Source: Gimesia maris (GTDB taxonomy: Bacteria; Planctomycetota; Planctomycetia; Planctomycetales; Planctomycetaceae). From it: DNA of 64,000 bases. Under the pieces are notes generated by a model, which was not told the DNA's origin, ran no database searches, and saw nothing but the letters and a program-made list of their open reading frames with translations. Positions 1,756 through 39,741 of the stretch are shown one piece after another. Both the position numbers and the translations under genes were made by a program. Numbering within the stretch: position 1 is the first letter of the stretch; the number at the start of each line of letters is the position of its first letter. The stretch is taken from contig NZ_CP042910.1 of the NCBI RefSeq assembly GCF_008298035.1, positions 4,913,001 to 4,977,000 of the forward strand, written 5' to 3'.

Positions 1756-4700
1756 ATGTTTGATCTCTCCCTGGGACGAATTCCTCAGGCAGGCCTCGCA
1801 TTCCTGCTCATCGCCGCTGCCACAGTGGTTTACGCGGAATCTCCCGCAGCAAAAGCACAAGAGAAGTCCGCCGCCAGCAGCGACATTGACTTCAATCGCG
1901 ACATCCGCCCCATTCTCTCCAAGAACTGTTTTCACTGTCACGGCCCTGATGAAGGCACCCGCGAAGCAGAACTCCGCCTCGATCAGCGTCCTGCCGCTAT
2001 CGCGAAACTTCCCAGTGATGCCCACGCGATTATCCCCAACAAAGCCGATCAGAGCGAACTCGTTCGCCGCATCATTTCCAAAGACGAATACGCCGTCATG
2101 CCGCCCCCCGAGGTCGGAGAAAAACTGACCGACGCACAGATTGCCAAAATTAAAGCCTGGATCAACCAGGGCGCGCCCTACTCCCGGCACTGGTCGTTCA
2201 TTCCTCCCGAACGTCCTCCCCTGCCGACCGTCACACAACAGAACTGGCCCACCAATGCCATCGATCACTTCGTTCTGGCGAAACTCGAAGCAGCCGGCCT
2301 TAAACCCAGCCTGGAAGCCAGTCGCCATACACTCATCCGACGCCTCAGCTTCGATCTCCGTGGCTTGCCTCCCACTCAGGCCGAAGTCGATCAGTTCCTC
2401 AAAGACAAATCTCCCGACGCTTACGATAAACTCGTCGATCGTTTCCTGGCTGATCCTGCTTACGGCGAACGCTGGGCCCGAAAGTGGCTCGACCTCGCCC
2501 GCTATGCCGACTCCAAAGGTTATGGCTCCGACCCACTCCGCATGACCATCTGGCGATATCGTGACTGGGTCATCTCCGCGCTCAACAACAACATGCCCTA
2601 CGATCAGTTTACCCTCGAACAGCTGGCCGGTGACCTCCTGCCCGAAGCCACGCTCGAACAGCAGGTCGCCACTGCTTTCCATCGTAATTCGATGACCAAC
2701 ACCGAAGGCGGAACCGATGATGAGGAATTCCGCGTCGCCGCGGTCAGCGATCGTGTCGATACGACCATCCAGGTCTGGATGGGCCTGACCATGGGTTGTG
2801 CGAAATGTCATACTCATAAATACGATCCGATTTCGCAGAAGGAATACTATCAGCTCTACGCCTTCTTCAATCAGACCGCAGACAACGATCAACCCACCGA
2901 TGCCCCTACCATCGCTGCTCCGACCAAAGCGATGCTGAAAGAAACCAGCCGCATCGAAACCGAAATCGCGGCACTCAACAAACGCCTGCAGACACCAACG
3001 CCGGAACTCGCTGCCGCCCAGCAGAAATGGGAAGCCACTCTGCACGCCAAACCCGACTGGCAGACATTGACTCCGCTCGCTGCAACTTCCTCTTCCGATA
3101 AAACCAAACTGGAAATCCGCGACGATCAATCCATTCTCGCCAGCGGGTCTCCCTCGAACGAAACCTACACCATCGAAACCGAAGTCGATCTGCAGACTCT
3201 CAAAGCCCTGCGACTCGAAGTCCTGCCCGATCCCAGCCTGCCCGCTCAAGGGCCCGGCCGCGCCAAGGACGGCAACTTCGTCCTCTCGGAAATCAGCCTC
3301 ACCGGTAAACCGCTCCACGCAGACACCCCGGTGCAGGGCCAGTTCCTGCGGATCGAACAGCAGGGAGCCGAACAGCAGATTCTTTCGCTCGCCGAAGTCC
3401 AGGTCTTCCAGCAGGACAAGAACATCGCCGCCCAGGGAACCGCCACCCAGTCCAGCGTTGCCTACGACGGACCCGCCAGTCTCGCGATTGACGGCAACAC
3501 CGACGGCCATTACTTCAATGCAAAGTCGACGACTCATACGAAAACCGAAGTCGCCCCCTGGTGGGAACTCAAACTGAAAGAAAATACTCCGCTCGACCGC
3601 GTCGTCATCTGGAACCGCACCGACGGTAGTGGCGAACGTCTGGCCAACTTCAGAGTCAGCCTGCTCGACGATGCACGCAACGTCGTCTGGCAAACCATTG
3701 TCGCCGACTCTCCCAAACCGTCTGTCACTCTGCCTGTTTCGAATGAACGTTCCCTCCCGATCCGTCGTGCCTTCGCTTCCTTCTCGCAGTCCGGTTTCCC
3801 GGTCACTGGCAGCATCGACCCGGCCAGCAGGAACCAGAAAGGCTGGGGCATCGCACCGCAGTTCGGCAAACCCAACTCTGCTTATTTTATTCTGGAAAAC
3901 AAACCCGCAGCCGATTCCGGCAAACAGCGGCTGCTCATCAAACTGTCTCACAATTACAAAGATCCTCAATACGCCCTCGGACGATTCCGACTCTCCTACA
4001 CTACCGAATCCAAACTCGAACCCCGACTCAAAGTCAGCGATGATCTCCTCGCCATCGTCGACACCAAACCCGCAGACCGTAGTCCCGCCGACCAGAACAA
4101 ACTCGCCGCCTACTACCGCAGCATCGCTCCCGCTTTGAAAGCAACCCGCGATCAGATCGCGAAACTGCAGAAAGCCAAACCCGTTTACCCGCAGCTCCCC
4201 GTCATGCAGGAACTCCCTGTCGACAAACAGCGCGAAACCCACACCATGGTTCGAGGCAGCTTCCTCACTCCCGGCGATCGTGTTGAACCCGCTGTCCTCA
4301 GCTCTTTCAATCCGCCTCCCAAAGAAACCCCAAAAAACCGTATCGCCGTTGCGAAATGGCTCACCGATCCTCAGAACCCGTTGACGGCCCGCGTCGCCGT
4401 CAATCGTCTCTGGTCTCAACTGTTCGGCAAAGGACTCGTTGTTACCGAAGAAGATTTCGGCACCCAGGGTGAACTCCCCAGTCATCCGCAACTCCTCGAC
4501 TGGCTCGCCACCGAATTCGTCAACAACGGCTGGGACATGAAAGCCCTCCTGAAAACCATCGTCATGTCCAGCACGTATCGGCAGGATTCCACCACCCTGC
4601 CCGTGCATCTGGAAAAAGATCCCGACAACCGTCTGCTCTCTCGCGGTGCCCGTTATCGACTGGAAGCCGAAATGATCCGCGACCAGGCACTCGCTCTGAG

Positions 4701-7479: not shown

Positions 7480-8780
7480 AAGACAGGCAATACTCTGCTG
7501 ATGATTTAAGACGCGCATCTGGTTACTCCTCCCTGAGTTCACCTGATCCTTCGTTGCTGTATAAAGTGAGTCTTTACTGAAAAGATTCCTCTTGACGCCT
7601 GCCCGCCGTTCGCCATCATCCCCGCTTATAAGTGTGTCGCGCGCGTGGTCCAGTATTTTTGCAGCTGATCACCGCGAACCACTGACAAAACCTGTACTAT
7701 AAAAGTCCCCTGTTTCTGAACCATTTTGACCAAAGGCTGCTCAAACATTCTCTGTGGATCGCCAGCACATCGCCCCCCTGTCGCCACGGAACGCCCCGGC
7801 ATCGCCCCCCTGTCGGCACAGTTCAGCCAATATCGCCACAAATTTTGTAGCATCAGCTCTTGACCTGCCCACGCCCTTTGAGAAAATCCCACCCACTGGC
7901 ACAACATTTTTCCGTTCCCCAAAGAGACAAAGAAAGTTTCCATTTTCATCCAGGCCATCCATTCAAAACCAGGAGCATTCCATAACAGAAGCGGGAGCGG
8001 ATCACATTTACCCATAGCATTTTTTTAATTCGAACTGTTGTTACAGTTGTGAGACAACCAGGGCGAATACCCTGCGACTAATCAGTCATTCCAGCTGCCG
8101 AATCCCCCAGAAAATCAGCCGCACGGCGTTAGCCGCGGTTAACTTCGATATAGAAAAAGCAGACATTAAATGAATCAACCTCGGAAACAATTAAGAAACA
8201 CTGTCTGCCCCCACAATCAGCTCAGGTGTGGCACTATTGGCTCGCCAACAGTGATCGAGCAACCAGCCTCCACCAGTAACAAAAGGGTTGCCCCCAAATA
8301 AAATTCGGGCAGGAAGCAGACAGAACAATAACCCACTCATAATACGGAAAGCCACCAGTCAGGCGAGGTGAAGATCGGGAAGTACAACACCTTCATACCT
8401 GAAGCCTACTGTATATATCGTCAATTTTGAGATACCGCGTTCCTGGGCGAATATTTACGGAACAATGACCGGGCAATAGCTGTTACCCGGTCCTTAAATG
8501 TTAGTTCAAGACCAACATGCTCATAACAACACTGTAGTGAACAGTAAGAAAAACCGATAATCGATATAGGAAATTCATTCTAAAATCAGTAAATGGGATC
8601 TCCTGAAATAGTCTTTATTATTTCAAAGGCATCCAACTAAGTTATTGAAAATGTTTCACAAACAGATTCTAATCATAGCAATAGCACTTTAGTACATATG
8701 TTCAAATGTGAAATCAGAGTACAACTGTATGAGTCATAGAATCAAACATATTGGAAGCACTTAGCTCCAGGAGACTCTTA
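7480..8780. other. 1.3 kb stretch with no supported gene
   Basis: Short reading frames exist on both strands (for example 7626-8015 minus), but none has a convincing start, domain or composition. A short direct repeat CATCGCCCCCCTGTCG occurs twice around 7768-7814. AT content rises towards 8500-8780, which leads into the AT-rich accessory operon. The boundary of an inserted island may lie here, but no flanking repeat or integrase is seen. Confidence 0.5.
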
Positions 8781-9377
8781 ATGCCCACTATTAGTCGTCG
8801 TAATCTTGTCCTGTTGATGTTGGGAATAGACCCAGACGGCGAGATCGCTAAAGGCATCGGTGGAATTACACGTTTGCAAAAACTTCTTTATTTATTGGAG
8901 CGTGAGGAGAATCTGACTCCTACTGAAAATGGATTTGATTTTTCTGCATATAAGGCTGGTCCATATTCTTCAAAACTATATGACGATTTGGAGTTTTTAG
9001 AGAACCTCGGATTTGTTGAATCTGAAGTGACCGCTGATGCTACTCTTGGAGAGGCAGCAGAAGTAGAGTTGCTCGATTTTGAAGAATTGCTCGGTGACGG
9101 GGCAGAGAACTCCAATGATGAAGCTGTGGATGGAATAGCTGCAGCTGATGCTTTTGAAGAACGTCGATTTAAAATTACAGATGAAGGAACGCAACGGATA
9201 CAGTCCCTTCTGGAATCTGAAGAATACAAACCTTTAAGTGAAGGAATCCGTCGCGTCAAACGGAAATATGGCACATACTCCCTATCTGATTTGTTGTATT
9301 ATGTCTATGAAAAGTATCCAGACATGACCGTAGAATCGGAAATTAAGGATCAGGTTTTTCGAGGACGAAATAAATAA
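8781..9377 (+). CDS. YwgA/Panacea-like winged-helix protein, first gene of an accessory operon
   Basis: A 198-residue protein. The ATG at 8781 was chosen because AGGAG lies 7 bases upstream; an upstream in-frame ATG at 8751 has no such site. The N-terminal part carries ITRLQKLLYLLE and then YKAGPYSSKLYDDL, a pattern like YwgA and Panacea/DUF4065-type proteins, small winged-helix proteins often found as antitoxin or regulatory partners. An acidic linker (about 95-135) precedes a helical C-terminal part. Its stop overlaps the next start by one base (TAATG), so translational coupling is likely. The regulatory role is inference from fold resemblance; the gene is AT-rich compared with the flanks. 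Confidence 0.6.
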   Translation: MPTISRRNLVLLMLGIDPDGEIAKGIGGITRLQKLLYLLEREENLTPTENGFDFSAYKAGPYSSKLYDDLEFLENLGFVESEVTADATLGEAAEVELLDFEELLGDGAENSNDEAVDGIAAADAFEERRFKITDEGTQRIQSLLESEEYKPLSEGIRRVKRKYGTYSLSDLLYYVYEKYPDMTVESEIKDQVFRGRNK

Positions 9378-12429: not shown

Positions 12430-12684
12430 TAAGTAACCCTTTCATAAATCTATGCCTCTATATGCGGAGAGACTTACGGGGTCAGGAGATTTAAAGCAGG
12501 AGTCGTTTATTTGCCTCCTGTCCCTTTTTATCCTCAATCGTCTTATTCCAGGCTGCGGCCCCACGTCGCCGCAGTCGTCGTCAATGATTGGCCAGACTTA
12601 TAAAAACGGAGACGCCTGATCCACCTGAATCCTCATGTGATTCCTGATCACTCCCCGTTGACAGCGACATCAGAAGTCAAAACC

Positions 12685-13824
12685 TCAATCCAGATGGGAA
12701 ACCACTTCCTGAAGCCGCTCTCTTCGGCTGTTGACCGCTTCCTGTCTCCAGTCACAGTCAAATATTTGATCCACTCGACGAGCGATTTTGCCCGTACGTT
12801 GGAGGGCAGCCTTTGTCTTATCAATCCGGCGGATCACTTCGTCCTTCGCGACGCGCAGGTCACTGGCCACGACTTGCGGTGACTGATACCAGAAATCTTC
12901 TGCGGGTTGCATGCCCACAGCCCAGCGTACTGCGGCGAGCCGGATGTCAAGCATCAGCAGACTGAAAGTGAACTGCAATTGAACGCTGCGTTTCCCGGAA
13001 AGATCATGTCTCAAAACATCTACTACGCCGGACGTGCGATCGACAGGATCTCCGTTTGTTGCATCAATTAAGCGCGAGCGTATCTGTTTTTCGATGGCTT
13101 CGTGGACACGTATCAAATCTGCATAGTCCATGGCAACCTGACGTTGCTGCTGTGCATAATGAAACGCGTCTTCAGCACAACCATCAAACAGGGCCAGTTC
13201 AGCCTTGGCGTTTGCCAGATCGGCTCGATACCCCAGGCATTCGGTCTCGCCATCACGCTCCATGATTTTTATCCAGTCTTCGGCCTGCGGGCGGCGATTC
13301 AAGCTCAGGTTCACAAGACATCCGGCAGCAGCAGTTGCGTGAGCGTGATTCATGGTTGCTGCGCCGCGTTCCGACCACGCCAGTTCTATGGCATTGAGAG
13401 ACTTCTCATTCTTGCCCTGATCTTCCAAGAACTCATACTCACAGAACCGTAAGTCGGCAACGACTCCTTCTAGAGCGTTTCCAGCAAGACTTTCCAGTTC
13501 TCCAAGCCGCGTTTCTAACTGCGTCATATCGGGATTGTAAAGCCGCAGCAGATCGAAAGTCATTTCTCTCATTGAGAACAAAGACTCGTGTCGCGACACC
13601 TCCCATGATTCCATAGAAAGGAGGCGATTCAATGCTTCCAACGGTTTACCCGCACGCTTAAGGCACTTCACCTCGTTCAATCCAAATTGGAATGCGATTC
13701 CTTCGTTGCCTGCCTGCTTCGCATCGTTGCATAATTGCCCAAACATCATTCCCGCTTCCACAAAGCGTCCCTGTCCGTAAGCCTCGTGCGCATGTTCGCG
13801 TAAAATGTATGCATCGTAATCCAT
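12685..13824 (-). CDS. helical-repeat (TPR-like) protein, second tandem paralog
   Basis: A 379-residue, predicted all-helical protein with TPR-like helix pairs in its first 130 residues (for example HAYEAY-type and KPLEALNRLL segments). It is closely similar over its full length to the gene at 14017-15192; many blocks are identical, such as ELAWSERGA, LNRRPQAEDW and LAAVRWAVGMQPAED. It lies last on the strand after the Hsp90-like gene and the first paralog. The 90 bases upstream are a decayed copy of the 3' end of the Hsp90-like gene, which supplies the same GAAGG ribosome-binding stretch. TPR proteins commonly dock onto Hsp90, so a partner role is a reasonable inference. Confidence 0.72.
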   Translation of the reverse strand: MDYDAYILREHAHEAYGQGRFVEAGMMFGQLCNDAKQAGNEGIAFQFGLNEVKCLKRAGKPLEALNRLLSMESWEVSRHESLFSMREMTFDLLRLYNPDMTQLETRLGELESLAGNALEGVVADLRFCEYEFLEDQGKNEKSLNAIELAWSERGAATMNHAHATAAAGCLVNLSLNRRPQAEDWIKIMERDGETECLGYRADLANAKAELALFDGCAEDAFHYAQQQRQVAMDYADLIRVHEAIEKQIRSRLIDATNGDPVDRTSGVVDVLRHDLSGKRSVQLQFTFSLLMLDIRLAAVRWAVGMQPAEDFWYQSPQVVASDLRVAKDEVIRRIDKTKAALQRTGKIARRVDQIFDCDWRQEAVNSRRERLQEVVSHLD

Positions 13825-13832
13825 TGATGACA

Positions 13833-13919
13833 GCCTTCAATTCAGTGATTTGCAAACGTGATCAAGAAGTATGCTGGCGAAGCCTTTATTGTTCATCCAG
13901 GCAGTCGGCGAGATCTTCC
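13833..13919 (-). pseudogene. decayed duplicate of the 3' end of the Hsp90-like gene
   Basis: This stretch matches 15201-15287, the last codons of the Hsp90-like gene, at most positions. Read in the coding direction it keeps the codons for DLADCLDE, but a one-base insertion and an in-frame TAA (CAA TAA) break it. It shows that the unit duplicated was the Hsp90 3' end plus the helical-repeat gene, not the gene alone. Confidence 0.8.
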
Positions 13920-14016
13920 CCGGGAGGAAAATTAAGGGAGCAGTTCTTTTCATCATAGGCTACCAGGCCGAACAGCATGGGATCTGCCCCCTCTCTCTCC
14001 CTCATGTAATTCCTGC

Positions 14017-15192
14017 TTACACCTTGTTTACAGTGAAATCGGAAGTCACGCCTTGATCCAGATTGGAAACAATTTTCTGGAGCCGCTCTCTACGGTGATT
14101 TACCGCTTCCTGTCGCCAGTCACAGCAAAATGCCTGATCCGATTGTCGAGCGATTTTGCCTGCACGTCGGATGGCAGCCTTTGTCTTATCAATCCGGCGG
14201 ATGGCTTCGTCCTTCGCGACGCGCAGGTCACAGGCCACGACTTGCGGTGACTGATACCAGGAATCTTCTGCAGGTTGCATGCCCACAGCCCAACGTACTG
14301 CAGCGAGCCGGATGTCAAGCAGCAGTAGACTGAAACGAAACTGTAATTGAAGGCTGTTTTTCCCGGGAATCGCCTGTTTGAAGACGTCTAACACCCCGGA
14401 CAAGCGATCGACAGGGTCTCCGTTTGTTGCATCAAGCAGTCGCGAACGCACCTGTTTTTCGATTGCTTCGTGGACGCGTATCTTATCCGCATATTCCATG
14501 GCGACTCGACGTTGCTGCTGTGCATAGTGAAACACGTCCTCGTAACGACCATCAAACAGGGCGAGTTCAGCCTTGCAGTCCGCGAGGTCGGCTCGATATC
14601 CCAGACATGTGATCTCGCCATCACGCTCCATGATTTTTACCCAGTCCTCGGCCTGCGGGCGGCGATTCAAGCGCAGGTTCACAAGGCATCCATAAGAAGC
14701 AGTTGAGTGAGCGTGGTTCATGGTTCCTGCGCCGCGTTCCGACCACGCCAGCTCAATGGAATTGAGGGCCTTCTCATCCTTGCCCTGATCTTCCAAATAC
14801 AGATACTCATATAGTCGGAAGTCGGCAACGACTCCATCAAGAGCGCTTTTGGCAAGTCTTTCCAGTTCTCCAAGCCGCGTTTCTAACTGCGTCACATCGG
14901 GATTGTAACTCCGCAACAGATCGAAAGTCTGTTTTTTCATCTGGAACAAATACTCATGGAGCGGCGCCTTCCAGGACTTCATCGTAAGCAGCCGATTCAA
15001 TGCCCCCAACGGTTTACCTGCACGCAGCAGGCATTGCACTTCGAACAAGCCCAATTCGTATGCCAGTTCGTCTTTGCCTGCCTTTTTCGCATCATTGCAT
15101 GTTTGACCCGCCAGCACTCCCGCTTCTACAAAACGTCCCTGCCTGTAAGCCTCGTACGCATGATCTATCAGTATATATGCTTCCGGTCCCAT
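14017..15192 (-). CDS. helical-repeat (TPR-like) protein, first tandem paralog
   Basis: A 391-residue all-helical protein with TPR-like pairs (RFVEAGVLAGQTCNDAKKAG and similar) and no signal peptide or membrane segment. It starts 12 bases after the stop of the Hsp90-like gene, with a GAAGG about 9 bases before the ATG that lies in the tail region of that gene, so the two are surely cotranscribed. The paralog at 12685-13824 is its tandem copy. Function is unknown. By analogy with TPR cochaperones it may sense or deliver something to the Hsp90-like protein; that is inference. Confidence 0.75.
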   Translation of the reverse strand: MGPEAYILIDHAYEAYRQGRFVEAGVLAGQTCNDAKKAGKDELAYELGLFEVQCLLRAGKPLGALNRLLTMKSWKAPLHEYLFQMKKQTFDLLRSYNPDVTQLETRLGELERLAKSALDGVVADFRLYEYLYLEDQGKDEKALNSIELAWSERGAGTMNHAHSTASYGCLVNLRLNRRPQAEDWVKIMERDGEITCLGYRADLADCKAELALFDGRYEDVFHYAQQQRRVAMEYADKIRVHEAIEKQVRSRLLDATNGDPVDRLSGVLDVFKQAIPGKNSLQLQFRFSLLLLDIRLAAVRWAVGMQPAEDSWYQSPQVVACDLRVAKDEAIRRIDKTKAAIRRAGKIARQSDQAFCCDWRQEAVNHRRERLQKIVSNLDQGVTSDFTVNKV

Positions 15193-15204
15193 TTGCTAAA
15201 GCCT

Positions 15205-17790
15205 TCAATTCAGTGATTTGTGGACGTTATCAAGAAGTATGCTGGCGAAGCCCTGATGTTCATCCAGGCAGTCGGCGAGGTCTTCCTCTGTCACTTCTCG
15301 CCAGCGTTCTTCGGTAGGGAATCTGCTCACCAGGGTACGAACCATTAATGCGTCCAGCGTGACTGGCTTAAACAGTTCAACCAGTCTACGGGAGGAGAGA
15401 AAACGCTGCCGCGCAGAATCCTTGAGCAGCTTCGCGATGTGGACATCGTTCTGCATTTCGTGGTCGAGATAGTCCACCAGCGACTTGTCTCCCCGATTGC
15501 TGTAGACAATACAGTTCTGATTTCCCGGATCGAAGCGCATGTCCTCTCGCATTACGTGCGTCTCGTCGCGCAGTAACACAGCGGGACGTGAGCGAGGATC
15601 AAATCGAACGGCGCCGGCTTCAAGCATCTGCTGCGGTTGCATGGTCGTAAACTCGACAATAAATGCGTCAGCCCGATTCATCAGCCGACGAATGCCGTCT
15701 GTCGATTTCTGTTTCAGGTCACGAGCCAGGAGCAACTCACATTTCCAGCGTTCTTCCACAACAGTGCGGCCGGCTTCGATGACGTCGTCAAATTCCGCAG
15801 TCTCTGGTGTCACCATGAAGATACAGCGGTGCTGTCGCTCCGGATTTTTCGCAGGCACCACATCCAGTTCGGGCTGGTCCCTCTCCGGTTGCAGCAATAC
15901 CGCCTCTGCCATGTCAGCCACGGTTTCCCAGCGTTTCACTAACAGCCGATGCATCTGCTGATTCAGAATCTGAGTGTTTTCCGTAGTTAAAAGGTCCTGA
16001 TTAAAGAGAATTGCGTTGTTGTAGATGCCACTGAGAATCTCATCGACTTCCGGTTCGCCGAACAACTCGGGATGTTCGGCAATATCACGAATCAGGCTGT
16101 TGTCCGCATTAATGGTGAGCCGCATCGATTCTGCCGTGGTCATCTTGAGCAGTGTCTCCGCCATCTCACGCATACTCTGTGGTGTATTAGGCTGATTCAG
16201 TAGATCCTCTGCCTGGTGGTGCATCTCGGAACGCTCGGTGGTGCGAATCAGTGCAGCCAGGTCTGCTGGTTTGAACTTCCGGGCCTCGACACGGATTGAT
16301 CTGCCTCGGGGCTTAACCACCTGTTCCATGCGTGTTGCCAGACGTTGAAATCGAACCTCTTCCTGATGCTCTTCCAGGTGGCGAAAGATATTCGGGTCGT
16401 CAATCTGATCGACGCGTATAATTTTAATGGAAACGTCTTCGAACTCTGCGTATTTCTCAAGCAGCAACATTTCAAAGGGGCCACTGGCGTCAATCACCAG
16501 CGAGTTTGCAGATTCCGCCATATTGAAATACTGATTCGCCGAGAACGCCGTGGCGAAACAGGGCAGAGCCTGGGGACCGGATTCCGACTTAGGCAACGCC
16601 GAAAGAATTTCAGGCAGGCGTCGCCAGTAAAATCCGCTGTAGCTCTCCTCATCGATCGCCTTGCCCCCACAATTCGTCCGCCATTCGAGCAGGTTGGCCA
16701 CGTTTCGGAAAAGCTCATCGTATTCGTAGCAGGCTGCCTTGATACCGATATCGTGATATTTCAGTATTCTCTGGAAGCGTTGTGGCTCGTCCAGCGAAAG
16801 TTCACGCAGCCGTTCAATGATGAGGTGTCCGAATTCTTCTTTGATGCGATCGGTCGTGTCATCGCGCACAAAGTTGTCACGTGCAGCGGTGGGGATGATT
16901 GCGGAAGTATTGATCACTCCCCGGACAAACCGAGCCCACGGTGGCAGCAGGTCCGTCGTTTCACACAGAAACATTCTCTGCTGATAAAGCCTCACCCTTC
17001 CCGGAGGCTGTTCATGGTTGGGCAGCGAACGCTGGTCGGAAATGTAAAGCACTCCTCGCGTAGGACCAGGATTCTCGATGTCGACATCAATAAGGGCAAG
17101 CGCGCTGTCGGGCATGGTCTTTGCCAGATAGACTTGTGTTTCCCGGGCACGCGTCTCTTCGTTCAATCCGTCACGGTCCCAAGGCATAATCATCTGGTTG
17201 ATCGGTTCGCGGCTGCCGTTTAGATGAATCGGCACTTTCAGCATGTCGGCATATTTACGAATGACATTGTCAACTTCTTCCGGATGGATGACACCTTTGT
17301 CCTCTTCCCCTTTAAGAAAGACAGTCACGGTCGTTCCAAATGAGTCCTTACTGACATTGCTTACCGTGTATTCCTGAGTGCCGCTGTTTGACCACTTCCA
17401 CCCATCGTCGTCGCCAGTCTTTCGTGTTTCGACTTCAACACGCTCGGCCACGATGAACGCCGAGAGAAAGCCGATTCCAAACTGACCGACTAATCCGGTG
17501 ACGTCCCCCTTTTCAAGTCTCGTTGCTCCACGTCCGATGACAGCCAGGTATTCGCCGATGTCGTTCAAGTCCATTCCGAGCCCGTTATCGCGGATAATGA
17601 ATTGAAGTTCGTCTGGTCGACTTTCGATATCGATCCTTGGTGAAAACGCATCGGATTCACGTGACTGGCGACGAAGGATCCCGTCATGAGCGTTCTGGAT
17701 GAGTTCACGGATGAAGACGCGTTTTTCGCTATACAGATTCTTGGCCAGCAGTTGTATCAGACCCTGGAAATCGAATTCCATATTGGGCAT
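15205..17790 (-). CDS. Hsp90-like ATPase fused to a TIR-like/deoxyribosyltransferase-like C-terminal domain
   Basis: An 861-residue protein. Residues 1-190 are an Hsp90-type GHKL ATPase domain with the N box (ELIQNAHDG), DNGLGM and GQFGIGFLSAF. The middle domain (about 220-400) keeps the Hsp90 pattern VRLYQQRMFL, ARFVRGVI and an Arg in AARDNF near the position of the catalytic-loop Arg. The usual Hsp90 dimerisation domain is not recognisable. Instead residues 654-750 read like TIR-like/nucleoside 2-deoxyribosyltransferase-like domains: FMVTPETAEFDDV, then RADAFIVEFT and QPQQMLEAG, where the Glu (about 724) aligns with the catalytic Glu of those families. The start has AAGGTG 5 bases upstream. 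Ordinary HtpG is about 600-650 residues, so this is an enlarged, specialised form. An NAD- or nucleotide-cleaving effector is inferred. Confidence 0.8.
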   Translation of the reverse strand: MPNMEFDFQGLIQLLAKNLYSEKRVFIRELIQNAHDGILRRQSRESDAFSPRIDIESRPDELQFIIRDNGLGMDLNDIGEYLAVIGRGATRLEKGDVTGLVGQFGIGFLSAFIVAERVEVETRKTGDDDGWKWSNSGTQEYTVSNVSKDSFGTTVTVFLKGEEDKGVIHPEEVDNVIRKYADMLKVPIHLNGSREPINQMIMPWDRDGLNEETRARETQVYLAKTMPDSALALIDVDIENPGPTRGVLYISDQRSLPNHEQPPGRVRLYQQRMFLCETTDLLPPWARFVRGVINTSAIIPTAARDNFVRDDTTDRIKEEFGHLIIERLRELSLDEPQRFQRILKYHDIGIKAACYEYDELFRNVANLLEWRTNCGGKAIDEESYSGFYWRRLPEILSALPKSESGPQALPCFATAFSANQYFNMAESANSLVIDASGPFEMLLLEKYAEFEDVSIKIIRVDQIDDPNIFRHLEEHQEEVRFQRLATRMEQVVKPRGRSIRVEARKFKPADLAALIRTTERSEMHHQAEDLLNQPNTPQSMREMAETLLKMTTAESMRLTINADNSLIRDIAEHPELFGEPEVDEILSGIYNNAILFNQDLLTTENTQILNQQMHRLLVKRWETVADMAEAVLLQPERDQPELDVVPAKNPERQHRCIFMVTPETAEFDDVIEAGRTVVEERWKCELLLARDLKQKSTDGIRRLMNRADAFIVEFTTMQPQQMLEAGAVRFDPRSRPAVLLRDETHVMREDMRFDPGNQNCIVYSNRGDKSLVDYLDHEMQNDVHIAKLLKDSARQRFLSSRRLVELFKPVTLDALMVRTLVSRFPTEERWREVTEEDLADCLDEHQGFASILLDNVHKSLN

Positions 17791-18155
17791 AGTGTCACCT
17801 TCTATCTAAGGTCGAATCGATAGATCAAATTGAATAGATTTAAGGGGAGCTTTAAAGGGGTCAGACCCCGTTACCCTCTTCAGTTCATCATACTTTCTGT
17901 CATTCAACCGCGCTGTATTAAAAATTCGGTTGACTGGCTGCCCTGTGCGTCATGCTGCATTGTGGCCCCCTGATGCTGGTTGTATAGAACAGAGAATCAA
18001 TGTTCAATTGTGAACATCCAGATCCGCACATTCAAGCATAAGCATCGATTATTCAGAAAATCAGCCTTCGTAATCGTCTCTGCTTCGATTCTTGTCACTC
18101 GATCAATTAAACGGGGGAGTCTGGACTCTGTCAGTGACCACCAGGAGTACTGACC
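17791..18155. other. intergenic region between divergent genes, with REP-like palindrome
   Basis: No gene is supported. It separates the Hsp90-like operon (leftward) from the DUF2007 gene (rightward) and should hold both promoters. It contains the second GGGGTCAGACCCC palindrome at 17857-17869. The DUF2007 ribosome-binding site (CCAGGAG) ends the region. Confidence 0.5.
17857..17869. repeat. GGGGTCAGACCCC palindrome, copy 2
   Basis: Core identical to copies at 11893 and 24810, again in the context AAAGGGGTCAGACCCCG. It lies upstream of the Hsp90-like gene. Confidence 0.7.
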
Positions 18156-36724: not shown

Positions 36725-38266
36725 TTACATGTAAAATCGATAACTTGTCTGAACGAGATCTTCATCTGACACGTGCTTCATAATCTCGCCGATCTTTTGT
36801 GAAAACGACAGAGTAATCGGTGTTCCGTCTGCGAACGAGCAATTATTAACATTCATCTTTGTCAGTTCCAGCACTTCCCGGAACAAGTCTTTCGGGGCAC
36901 TACTGCCGTGACGTTCGAGGATTTGCCATGGCTCGGGGACGTAACTGCCGGGAAATGTTTCAAGATACGGAATAAAGCCCATCGTGTAGAGAAAATGGGC
37001 CTCATCTTCGATGCAGAAATATGAACCACGTGCCGGTGGGTACTGACCTTCTCGAAAGAACCGAATTCGTGAACGAGTCAAAGTGACGAGATCGTAGTCG
37101 CAGCCGGGAAAAACAGACTGGATACCTTCGATGAATCCATCGAGTTCATTATATTCACCATGGTCATGTCCCCAAAAACGTGACGGTTTGTGGACCACGA
37201 CTCGCTTGGGTGGCGTTCCCCGGACATTGATGTACTCTTTCAGCGTTGCACTAACCAAGCGACTGGCACCTTCACAAGACATGTGCGGGCTCTTTCCATT
37301 CGCATCGGAGTTCCATTCAAACGGATCACCACGAAGCACAAGTCCTTGTCCGAGGTAGTCAAACGCCTGTGCCACGCTGGTCCGCATAGTCAGGCTGTCT
37401 TTACCTTCTTGGGCAACATAGAAATCGACACCAATGAAACACGTGTCTTTCTCAACAGTCACAGGGCACCAAGGGATACCCTCGGCTTTGTAATACAATG
37501 CTGTGCAAAAGTTCCAAGCTCTGGTCGCTTTCTCTTGTAGCGGTGTCTTACGTCCCTTCGGTTTCTTGCCAAGAATGGTACTACGTTGGATTAGTTGAAT
37601 AGGCACGCCCCACTGCATTGCCTTTGCTTTGATCGCACGCCGGAAGTTTAGAAAGAAATTGCCGGTAACTTGAACGGTGTATGCCTCGTCTATGATTTCA
37701 GGAGTCAGTGCGAGGACGATGATATCTGGAGCGGGGCTTGTCTCAGCAAGGCTTTTTATATGACCGTTAAACAATTCGACGAGTTCCCAAATCCGTCGTT
37801 GCTTCTCTTCGATCCCAAGCGTCTTGTTGATTTCGTTCTGTCGAATCGTTCGATCCCACCGGTCGTTCATCTGGAAGCACGACTCAAATTCAGAATCCTT
37901 TGAGAAACCGATGAAGTCACGATTCAGAATCTTGTACAACCGAACGATTGGTTCATGAATGTGTTCGTCTTCAAATATGTCCTGACCGAACAAGCTCGGA
38001 AGATTGTCTACTTCCCTGATTTTGGCTTTGATAACTTTCGAGTTTTCACTTTCGATTTCTGTCCCACACTCTTCTAACCATTCCTTCGCACCAGCGATGG
38101 TTTCACGAGTGCCAATGAAACCCATTTTGATTTCAGAGGGATGGAGACCAGCTATGTTTTTCCCAAACGGTCCGAATTCGGCAAGCCCTGTTTTCGTGTC
38201 TTGGTGCTCAAAGTATTTCCCGAATTGAAGCTTTGGCTCTTTGAGATACTCTATGCTAATACTCAT
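36725..38266 (-). CDS. short prokaryotic Argonaute (MID-PIWI) of a SPARDA-type system
   Basis: A 513-residue protein with MID and PIWI domains and no PAZ. The MID region carries RRAIKAKAMQWGVPIQLIQR, the guide 5'-end pocket pattern of short pAgos. The PIWI region has ATRAWNFCTALYYKAEGIPW, CFIGVDFYVA, RVVVHKPSRFW and the C-terminal SFSQKIGEIMKHV. The start at 38266 is set by GGAGG 9 bases upstream; an ATG at 38275 abuts that site and is unlikely. It overlaps the DUF4365-APAZ gene by 11 bases. Short pAgos are usually catalytically inactive and act as guide-directed sensors that activate the partner nuclease; the full catalytic tetrad was not found here. Confidence 0.88.
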   Translation of the reverse strand: MSISIEYLKEPKLQFGKYFEHQDTKTGLAEFGPFGKNIAGLHPSEIKMGFIGTRETIAGAKEWLEECGTEIESENSKVIKAKIREVDNLPSLFGQDIFEDEHIHEPIVRLYKILNRDFIGFSKDSEFESCFQMNDRWDRTIRQNEINKTLGIEEKQRRIWELVELFNGHIKSLAETSPAPDIIVLALTPEIIDEAYTVQVTGNFFLNFRRAIKAKAMQWGVPIQLIQRSTILGKKPKGRKTPLQEKATRAWNFCTALYYKAEGIPWCPVTVEKDTCFIGVDFYVAQEGKDSLTMRTSVAQAFDYLGQGLVLRGDPFEWNSDANGKSPHMSCEGASRLVSATLKEYINVRGTPPKRVVVHKPSRFWGHDHGEYNELDGFIEGIQSVFPGCDYDLVTLTRSRIRFFREGQYPPARGSYFCIEDEAHFLYTMGFIPYLETFPGSYVPEPWQILERHGSSAPKDLFREVLELTKMNVNNCSFADGTPITLSFSQKIGEIMKHVSDEDLVQTSYRFYM

Positions 38267-39623
38267 TCGAATCATCCTCCATGTCGCTTAAGCCAAACAG
38301 AGTCAACTGGGGAGATGATGGTTCCTCTTCATGGGTTGCCGGATCAAACGGAATTGCAAATTCCGCAATGACTGTTGCTGGTTCAGGCTCGATCACCACA
38401 AGCGTCTCTCCGAAAAGCGTCATCTCGATTCTCGAATGGCCATTCGCAAGTGTTTGTCCCCAGAAGAGCACATGATTTAAAACCTGCGGATTGTGTTCCA
38501 TCGCCTTAAGTTTTGTTGTGTATGGTCCGACCAATGTTGGGTTGCAAGGCTTCTTACCGTCATCCGTAAAGAGATACTTTGGTGTGATCCGTAGAAACCA
38601 TTTTTCTCCGAACTGCTCAAAGCGAAACTCAGCGGCCAAGTGTCGCCAAAATGTAAATGTCCCGTATTTGTAGAATTGGACAACAGTTCGAGGCGGTGCG
38701 TCTCGCTTGGTTCGAAGACTCCTCCATGTTCGAGAAAAACTCTTATCGGTATCGTCATCAGATTCACGTGGAAAATACGTTCGCTTAAAGTCCCGGTTAT
38801 AGGCCAATCCGCACTGATAACAATGGCTTCCAAACAATTGGTTTACCATGTATACAAGATGATTTCGCAAGTCGAAATCGTCCATCCAAGCAGAGAACGG
38901 CATCTCCTCAATTGTATTCACGTCGCAAACTTCACGAAGCACGTTCTTTTCATTGCGTAAATCAGACAACGTATAGAGATGCTTATCGTGGATGCAGAAA
39001 GGTGGTTTGTAGCCTTCGATCTCTTCCCTGATTCGTGTCGCTGATTTGCGGCGGGTTTTGGCATAAGTCAATGTCTTCGGAAGTCGCTTGACCGGCAGCA
39101 GATTTGTATACAGACGCTCCTGTTGATCGAACGAAATCCGAGGTGGACTTACGGCAGCATGTTCACAAACATTATCCTTTGCGTTCGCCGTAAAGAGATC
39201 GGTTGCTTTGTTAAAGATGACTTCCAGAGGCGTCTGCCAAACGTTTTCAGTCTCTCGGATATATGTTTTAATCTCCTTGAAGTACAGCGCATCGTCATCA
39301 GGATGGTAGACGATAAAGAATACCGGGAATGTGCAATGGTTCCAGTATTCAAGATCATCCATGCGAACGGGAGTTGCGAATGTTAGGCCGTGGTCTTTTT
39401 TAACATAGCTCGTCCCCGACTTAGCCTGCACCTTAATGATGCCACCGCTGGTCTCGTAGCCATTGCCGTCTACTTTAGGTGTTACGACTTCGATTTCGCC
39501 ATCAATGCCAACGTCATCCTGCGAGATGACACGAAAAAGACAGTTCATCTCGTGTGTGATGTGAGAGATGCGATCTAATCCCCTGAGTTCCGTGAATTTA
39601 GAAACCGGAACAGTTTTCGCCAT
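38256..39623 (-). CDS. DUF4365-APAZ effector nuclease (SPARDA DREN-type)
   Basis: A 455-residue protein from the ATG at 39623; the frame opens at a GTG at 39635, but AAGGGAG is better spaced for 39623. The N-terminal DUF4365 domain is PD-(D/E)XK-like: IDGEIEV and then VQAKSG give D45, E47, Q70 and K72 (numbered from 39635). The C-terminal half fits an APAZ domain, which pairs with short Argonautes. Together with the downstream pAgo this matches SPARDA systems, in which guide-bound target recognition activates indiscriminate DNA/RNA cleavage and stops phage or plasmid spread. A Cys pair in SHCYQCGLAY (about residue 269) is unusual to the eye. Confidence 0.86.
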   Translation of the reverse strand: MAKTVPVSKFTELRGLDRISHITHEMNCLFRVISQDDVGIDGEIEVVTPKVDGNGYETSGGIIKVQAKSGTSYVKKDHGLTFATPVRMDDLEYWNHCTFPVFFIVYHPDDDALYFKEIKTYIRETENVWQTPLEVIFNKATDLFTANAKDNVCEHAAVSPPRISFDQQERLYTNLLPVKRLPKTLTYAKTRRKSATRIREEIEGYKPPFCIHDKHLYTLSDLRNEKNVLREVCDVNTIEEMPFSAWMDDFDLRNHLVYMVNQLFGSHCYQCGLAYNRDFKRTYFPRESDDDTDKSFSRTWRSLRTKRDAPPRTVVQFYKYGTFTFWRHLAAEFRFEQFGEKWFLRITPKYLFTDDGKKPCNPTLVGPYTTKLKAMEHNPQVLNHVLFWGQTLANGHSRIEMTLFGETLVVIEPEPATVIAEFAIPFDPATHEEEPSSPQLTLFGLSDMEDDSNEY

Positions 39624-39741
39624 CGTATTCATCACTCCCTTGAAGATTCCGTTTTTTCGGGTTTACACCTCGCTAGCAAGTATAACGCACTTAGGAAAGA
39701 TTTATCAACGTTGCTGTCGTTACATTACAACTCTAATATTT

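Follow-up and report, generated by a model that had tools for sequence, protein, structure and literature searches.

An Hsp90 fused to a TIR-like domain, with TPR partners, in Gimesia maris: a candidate chaperone-based conflict system

A fusion gene and its repeat-protein partners

The stretch of DNA analysed here, referred to as the window, comprises 64,000 nucleotides of Gimesia maris (positions 4,913,001 to 4,977,000 of NZ_CP042910.1), whose genome is a single contig of 7.8 Mb. On its minus strand lies a gene that encodes an Hsp90 joined to a C-terminal TIR-like domain, followed after 12 nucleotides by the gene of a tetratricopeptide-repeat (TPR) protein, TPR1, and, 192 nucleotides further on, by a second such gene, TPR2; all three reading frames are open (Table 1). 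A reading made from the letters alone (the sequence-only reading) had drawn attention to these three frames and to intact GHKL and middle-domain motifs in the first of them: the coordinates it gave are exact, and the motifs are present.

The motifs in question are RELIQNAHD (residues 28-36), IIRDNGLGM (65-73), VGQFGIGF (101-108) and PTAARDNF (300-307). In a 50-row alignment R28, E29, N33, D36, D68, G70, G72, F104, G107 and R304 are invariant; R304 we take to be the equivalent of the catalytic-loop arginine of Hsp90. The NCBIfam profile NF010683 ('HSP90 family protein') matches with E 3e-99, the best stretch being residues 5-381, and that of HtpG (NF003555) with E 3.1e-74 across residues 5-611. 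Both matches remain under the curated equivalog cut-offs (250.6 of 371 bits for HtpG, 333.1 of 455 bits for PRK14083), from which we conclude that the Hsp90 of the window is a divergent paralogue. It is also an extra one, since a separate homologue, presumably the ordinary HtpG, is present elsewhere in the genome as a frame of 669 codons (27% identity over residues 6-344). A predicted model of the full-length protein (pLDDT 80.3, pTM 0.58) matches TRAP1, HtpG and Hsp90 structures in Foldseek, TRAP1 with E 7e-37, and among the best 50 rows the TRAP1 and Hsp90 alignments span at least 625 columns. No P-loop NTPase domain was found in the fusion with Pfam, which recognises GHKL and HSP90 families only, besides a sub-threshold match to Sacsin.

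Table 1. Features of the hsp90 operon (positions are those of the window; residues are those of the fusion protein)
Feature	Position	Strand	Basis
hsp90-TIR-like fusion gene, 861 aa	15205..17790	minus	open reading frame; Hsp90 and C-terminal domain matches
GHKL ATPase domain, ~residues 5-200 (E29, N33, D68, G70, G72, GQFGIGF loop)	17191..17778	minus	Pfam HATPase_c_3, E 1.3e-8
Hsp90 middle and C-terminal domains, ~residues 210-620	15931..17163	minus	HtpG profile to residue 611; Foldseek TRAP1/Hsp90
TIR/deoxyribosyltransferase-like N-glycosidase-fold domain, residues 651-780	15451..15840	minus	models, VIA-align, profile match to DNPH1/Rcl
Codon of E724, catalytic-position Glu	15619..15621	minus	E in 127/132 Hsp90-fused copies
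All-helical C-terminal tail, residues 783-860	15211..15444	minus	models; common to relatives
TPR1, partner repeat protein, 391 aa	14017..15192	minus	12 nt past hsp90; partner profile matches TPR structures
Relic of hsp90 3' end, 88 nt, 91% identical	13832..13919	minus	blastn
TPR2, 379 aa, duplicate of TPR1 (76% aa, 84% nt identity)	12685..13824	minus	

The two partners are indeed duplicates, as the sequence-only reading had them. The relic of the hsp90 3' end lies in the gap between them, and over the full duplicated block identity is 82.9% across 1266 columns; because a piece of hsp90 lies between the TPR genes, TPR2 and the relic would derive most simply from one tandem duplication of a unit made of the hsp90 3' end and a TPR gene. 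The related Gimesia genome G238 has a single TPR gene.

The C-terminal domain and its glutamate

That the protein is a fusion of Hsp90 with a domain of TIR-like fold is near certain. The C-terminal domain has the flavodoxin-like alpha/beta fold of the superfamily of N-glycosidases to which TIR domains and nucleoside 2-deoxyribosyltransferases (NDT) belong. Aligned with VIA-align, its model matches structures of DNPH1, the TIR domain of SPARTA, SARM1 and NDT; structure profiles likewise give DNPH1, TIR and deoxyribosyltransferase, with DNPH1/Rcl alone significant by sequence. The TIR- or deoxyribosyltransferase-like character proposed for this region is thus upheld. The Z scores of TIR structures lie no more than 1 unit from that of DNPH1, and therefore the fold cannot choose between them.

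Against a hidden Markov model (HMM) of 13 other Hsp90 C-termini, the C-terminal 217 residues score E 2.9e-16, where the best of 2000 shuffled sequences reaches E 0.28. It is by such family profiles alone that the domain is seen in the window copy: Pfam, PADLOC and NCBIfam gave no match to its C-terminal region. The nearest Pfam family is PF10137 (CAP12), which matches 15 of 23 family members at E ≤0.1 (best 9.4e-7). Two relatives, L036 and L038, score 23.7 of the 24.7 bits required by its gathering cut-off and the window copy, too, lies below it; among the matches listed, PF10137 stands in the precomputed annotation of 12 of 120 relatives. The helical tail may be a separate module, because the Hsp90s of two Dictyobacter (L098 and L104), which the domain profile matches weakly, have a C-terminus that reads as the tail without the TIR-like domain.

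Residues 706-730 of the window protein read RADAFIVEFTTMQPQQMLEAGAVRF, in which the glutamate is E724, the residue that the sequence-only reading had aligned with the catalytic glutamate of TIR-like domains. The family bears this out. In 132 copies fused to Hsp90 the column holds E 127 times, Q four times and D once, and after removal of copies more than 75% identical the glutamate is retained in 56 of 60; column 713 is acidic in 131 of the 132. The five copies that are not fused to Hsp90 have V, L, M, Q and E. Glutamate is thus found in 127 of 132 fused copies versus one of five unfused ones (Fisher p 4e-5; 56 of 60 versus one of five after deduplication, p 5e-4). One of the five keeps the residue, and for that reason the stronger proposal, that every copy found outside Hsp90 is a pseudo-enzyme, was rejected. 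A second set, gathered with an Acidobacteriota query, contains 115 relatives once two short proteins of the 117, which are without the domain, are left out: E occurs in 105, V in five, Q in two, and D, K and a gap once each. The two sets share at least four proteins and so are not independent.

The commonest letters around the glutamate are NPNVMFELGA; the window has QPQQMLEAGA, retaining E713, P719, E724 and G726, and G238 has QPQVMLETGA. The same close variant, QPQV with the glutamate kept, is found in P0003 and P0004. The family is likely to be catalytically competent, and the activity of the window's divergent copy, in which NPNV is lost, is the least certain part of the picture.

Two further proteins deserve mention. 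P0018 is an Hsp90 fusion with aspartate in place of the TIR-like glutamate and, on its C-terminal side, a nucleoside-phosphorylase-like domain (PF01048). The genome of the window itself encodes, at ~1.738 Mb (L120), a stand-alone TIR-like protein with NPNVMFELG, among frames 1336-2241 and 2291-3295 of that locus; its neighbour reads by eye as a pentapeptide-repeat protein with a TIR domain.

Relatives, exchanged modules and genomic company

The fusion architecture is found in Acidobacteriota, Cyanobacteria, Actinobacteria, Chloroflexota, Gammaproteobacteria and Planctomycetes. The relative in G238 is 91% identical to the window protein. With a Gimesia panareensis protein as query, 489 of 8000 candidates scored matched at E ≤1e-20, and the 120 matches listed are mostly of ~780-800 residues with a TIR-like C-terminus; with an Acidobacteriota protein, 412 matched at E ≤1e-100 among the 8000 candidates that share most words with it, nearly all of the 120 listed being full-length. 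Sources named among the matches listed include Microcoleus, Oscillatoriaceae, Chloroflexi, Nonomuraea, Sphaerisporangium, Cryptosporangium, Streptomyces, Kentrum and Planctomycetaceae. An early search with residues 600-861 of the window protein returned four close relatives alone and a first scan of contigs none, so that, had it not been for the search with the G. panareensis protein and a scan with alignment A2, the fusion would have seemed private to Gimesia. Automatic annotation has already caught it once: the JGI record of P0096 is named 'HSP90 family molecular chaperone/nucleoside 2-deoxyribosyltransferase'.

What stands at the C-terminus of these Hsp90s is not constant. By precomputed annotation it is TIR_2 in P0005 and EAD8 (PF19961) in P0074, P0081, P0088 and P0094. 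Other modules are N-terminal additions, as judged from where the Hsp90 core lies: Trypsin_2 (P0069, P0072), CHAT (P0097), PF19960 (P0098) and probably PF19955 of P0106. The clearest exchange is that between P0005, a G. panareensis protein with a canonical TIR_2 domain (E 1.1e-19), and its sister in the tree, P0006, which has the TIR-like domain and shares 82% identity with P0005 over 74% of the length. The tree was built by a quick method from 125 Hsp90 cores (215 before deduplication), with several long branches flagged; in it the window protein groups with L035, L036, L037, L038, L039 and L040 at support 100. A frame of 2056 residues at L038 was considered as a true N-terminal extension and rejected, there being no family in its first 1190 residues. 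Four contigs from a viral collection (L115-L118) give weak matches to the family in the Hsp90 ATPase domain.

The TPR partners are conserved as well. A phmmer search of the open reading frames (ORFs) of 80 loci, with the two window TPR proteins as queries, matched eight proteins. Seven adjoin hsp90, one in each of the seven relatives with an end-to-end match (L035-L040 and L056; 38-45% identity; best E 8e-11 to 2e-36), a result that needs the window proteins alone as query; the eighth, a weak match (4e-4), lies next to the unfused Hsp90 of a gammaproteobacterium (L058). A profile of 13 partners matches structures of a designed TPR (5e-6), alpha-SNAP (1.5e-5), kinesin light chain (5e-5) and, at 0.22 only, TPR2A of HOP, so that the helical-repeat genes are TPR-like partners, as had been suggested, kept across phyla. 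Of the next four matches after the end-to-end relatives, the widened profile detects an adjoining partner at L042 and L043 and none at L044 or at L041, where the contig ends ~550 nucleotides downstream. Overall, a partner (E ≤1e-5, within ~260 nucleotides) adjoins 14 of 21 fusion loci versus eight of 48 unfused ones, the Fisher value of 1.3e-4 being indicative only, because the profile was widened on the same ORFs and the loci are unevenly related (four are from Herpetosiphon). The unfused Hsp90 paralogues with an adjacent TPR homologue include L057, L058 and L060 (Competibacteraceae and other Proteobacteria) and L072-L074 and L103 (Herpetosiphon); it seems, then, that there is a chaperone-TPR operon independent of the effector domain. 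In 392 genomes of the phylum the partner search found the window's own genome (G000) and G238 alone.

Within Gimesia the gene is accessory. Of 17 genomes (two of them ~75% complete), two have the window type of operon and one the Hsp90-TIR type; some Hsp90 match is present in 15. Compared with 20 kb around the G238 copy, the window matches at 12669-13923 and 14038-17825 alone. The operon thus lies in different surroundings in the two genomes, with no more than ~35 and 16 bp of common flank. In G. panareensis the Hsp90-TIR gene is followed by three tandem genes of 383 codons, of which the one scanned is a TPR protein (TPR_12, 1e-70), and a CHAT protein is encoded ~3 kb beyond them.

Elsewhere the company is richer. 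At the loci of Microcoleus (L036) and Oscillatoriaceae (L037) the TPR gene lies upstream, and the block opens with a Trypco1-like gene (PF19493, 1.3e-4 and below cut-off, in L036; by eye in L037) and then a protease that carries the same C-terminal domain (PF13365, 1.4e-13, in L036). On the trypsin-like proteases of such cyanobacterial loci the domain usually lacks the glutamate. A second Microcoleus locus runs from Hsp90-TIR-like through TPR to a protein with TIR-like, EAD8 and Trypsin_2 domains. A mobilizable plasmid of Pseudanabaena holds Hsp90-TIR-like, a stand-alone copy with glutamine for the glutamate, and a TPR gene; TIR, VWA, AAA, methylase and helicase genes are near by, the VWA and AAA genes at least 3.5 kb downstream. 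At E 1e-10 PADLOC recognises 60 families over 99 ORFs flanking fusions and 19 over 99 control-flank ORFs, a tally of families rather than proteins in which many are unspecific.

The window contains other genes of note. A short prokaryotic Argonaute (PADLOC pAgo_I, E 2.5e-151) forms a pair with a DUF4365 protein at 36725-39635 on the minus strand, 19 kb from the hsp90 operon; the partner matches the Argonaute-associated REase family (E 9.5e-104), and the pair is of the SPARDA defence type. A gene at 8751-9377 on the plus strand has SocA/Panacea-like (sub-threshold), PADLOC PDC-M19A (3e-13) and DarG-like matches.

A chaperone clamp as a putative immune switch

On balance, and with confidence a little better than even, we regard the operon as an accessory conflict system, probably directed against phage, in which an Hsp90 clamp would serve as switch, the fused TIR/N-glycosidase-type domain as effector and the TPR protein as sensor or co-chaperone. 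The Hsp90 dimer would keep its two C-terminal TIR-like domains inactive; a phage protein or a misfolded one, presented by the TPR partner, would drive an ATP-dependent conformational change; the TIR-like domains would then assemble and, by cleaving NAD+ or some other nucleotide with the conserved glutamate, would arrest the infected cell. Hsp90 would thus stand where known systems use a STAND ATPase. An immune role is probable from the exchange of modules, the patchy distribution, the one plasmid location and the genomic company. The sequence-only reading had offered a defence or stress system, and its interpretation is supported: the homologues are not confined to housekeeping contexts, being accessory in Gimesia, present on a mobilizable plasmid, and in some cases equipped with TIR or EAD8 in place of the domain.

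Several observations weigh against this interpretation. Over the domain, the window sequence alone matches no Pfam family at E 0.1. It has QPQQ for NPNV at positions where relatives of the second set keep N718 in 99 of 115, N720 in 103 and V721 in 108, and the glutamate itself is absent from ten of those 115. The TIR-like domain also occurs without Hsp90, as TPR homologues do beside Hsp90s that are unfused. The number of module changes on the tree depends on labels: it is 20 with an 'other' class and falls to 11 (minimum 3) once this class is dropped together with two fragments. Among 292 cyanobacterial genomes (the phylum of Microcoleus), matches at E 1e-60 are confined to the two that were known beforehand.

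Three alternatives were considered. The domain could be a non-catalytic homotypic adaptor, akin to the effector-associated domains, linking the Hsp90 switch to an effector on another protein, for example a trypsin-like protease. It is fused to such proteases at L036, L037 and L138 and stands alone at L036 and L144, EAD8 occupies the C-terminus of four related Hsp90s and is also found on the L138 protease, and the glutamate is missing from four of the five copies that are not fused to Hsp90. An adaptor has no evident need of that residue, however, and 127 of 132 fused copies keep it; nor was a protease recognised beside the operons of the window or of G238. We consider this alternative unlikely.

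The second alternative is a proteostasis or nucleotide-sanitising stress protein, in which Hsp90 and its TPR co-chaperone would carry a DNPH1-like domain that removes damaged or modified deoxynucleotides. The fold is not decisive here, but patchy presence within Gimesia, the plasmid copy and the presence in relatives of canonical TIR or EAD8 where the domain would stand make such a function distinctly improbable. It is also improbable that, in a family of the kind we describe, the window's own copy is in decay or has become a pseudo-effector. The change of NPNV to QPQQ and the relic left by the TPR duplication would fit decay; the three frames are nevertheless open, the protein remains 91% identical to that of G238, and E713, P719, E724 and G726 are kept, as is the glutamate in the close QPQV variants.

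In the literature searched, whose scope excludes subscription papers and most preprints, no paper among the matches listed describes an Hsp90 that carries a TIR domain or a deoxyribosyltransferase domain. The nearest Pfam family is that of the CAP12 and Pycsar TIR effectors, which belong with STING or a cyclic-nucleotide sensor. Here, by contrast, the domain hangs on Hsp90, and no cyclase gene of CBASS or Pycsar was found among six neighbours and five further window genes scanned, or recognised by eye among the neighbours in G238. The solved structures of DNPH1/Rcl and of nucleoside 2-deoxyribosyltransferases (PF05014) are small single-domain enzymes without Hsp90, unlike the fusion. STAND/NACHT (NLR-like) receptors unite an ATPase switch with a fused TIR and repeats; our fusion likewise combines ATPase switch, TIR-like domain and repeat partners, although its ATPase is GHKL/Hsp90 rather than P-loop STAND. 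The DUF4062 Swarozyc proteins, according to the preprint PMC13174449, are TIR-like NADases with anti-phage activity in bacteria, distantly similar to TIR and NDT, with a conserved catalytic glutamate and modular architectures. The glutamate and the modularity are shared, but as described there they are a different domain family and not Hsp90, and the main text of the preprint uses 'chaperone' and 'HtpG' zero times. Kaur et al. 2020 (PMC7159879) propose, in the text available, that chaperones set the threshold for variable effectors. Trypco1 and EAD8, named there, occur in relatives of the window protein; the systems described differ in being built on MoxR-vWA, on GTPases (partly with HSP70 or tubulin) or on peptidase cascades, 'hsp90' occurs zero times in that text, and no MoxR and vWA or GTPase core genes were found among six window neighbours scanned. 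In the bNACHT25 paper (PMC12169576), as far as its available text goes, the bacterial chaperone DnaJ mediates phage sensing and deletion of htpG is without effect; the same source describes a role of Hsp90 for NLRP3 and plant R proteins, keeping plant and animal NLR receptors ready.

It is possible, though we propose it only tentatively, that the operon represents an entire class of immune receptors in bacteria, with an ATP-driven Hsp90 clamp rather than a STAND ATPase as the switch that transduces the signal, with TIR-like, TIR and EAD8 as exchangeable C-terminal modules, and with a TPR protein that presents the trigger; at some loci a pseudo-enzyme TIR-like copy on a trypsin-like protease may couple nucleotide degradation to a proteolytic arm. 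The family is large, with at least 412 proteins at E ≤1e-100 for one query, and hidden by annotation, because its named members are mostly 'molecular chaperone HtpG' or 'ATP-binding protein'. If our interpretation is right, a bacterial Hsp90 that carries a TIR-type effector would give the chaperone a central rather than an ancillary place in immunity, would add a new class of ATPase switch to the immune NTPases, and would offer a tractable bacterial setting for studying how the ATP cycle of Hsp90 can gate an enzyme.

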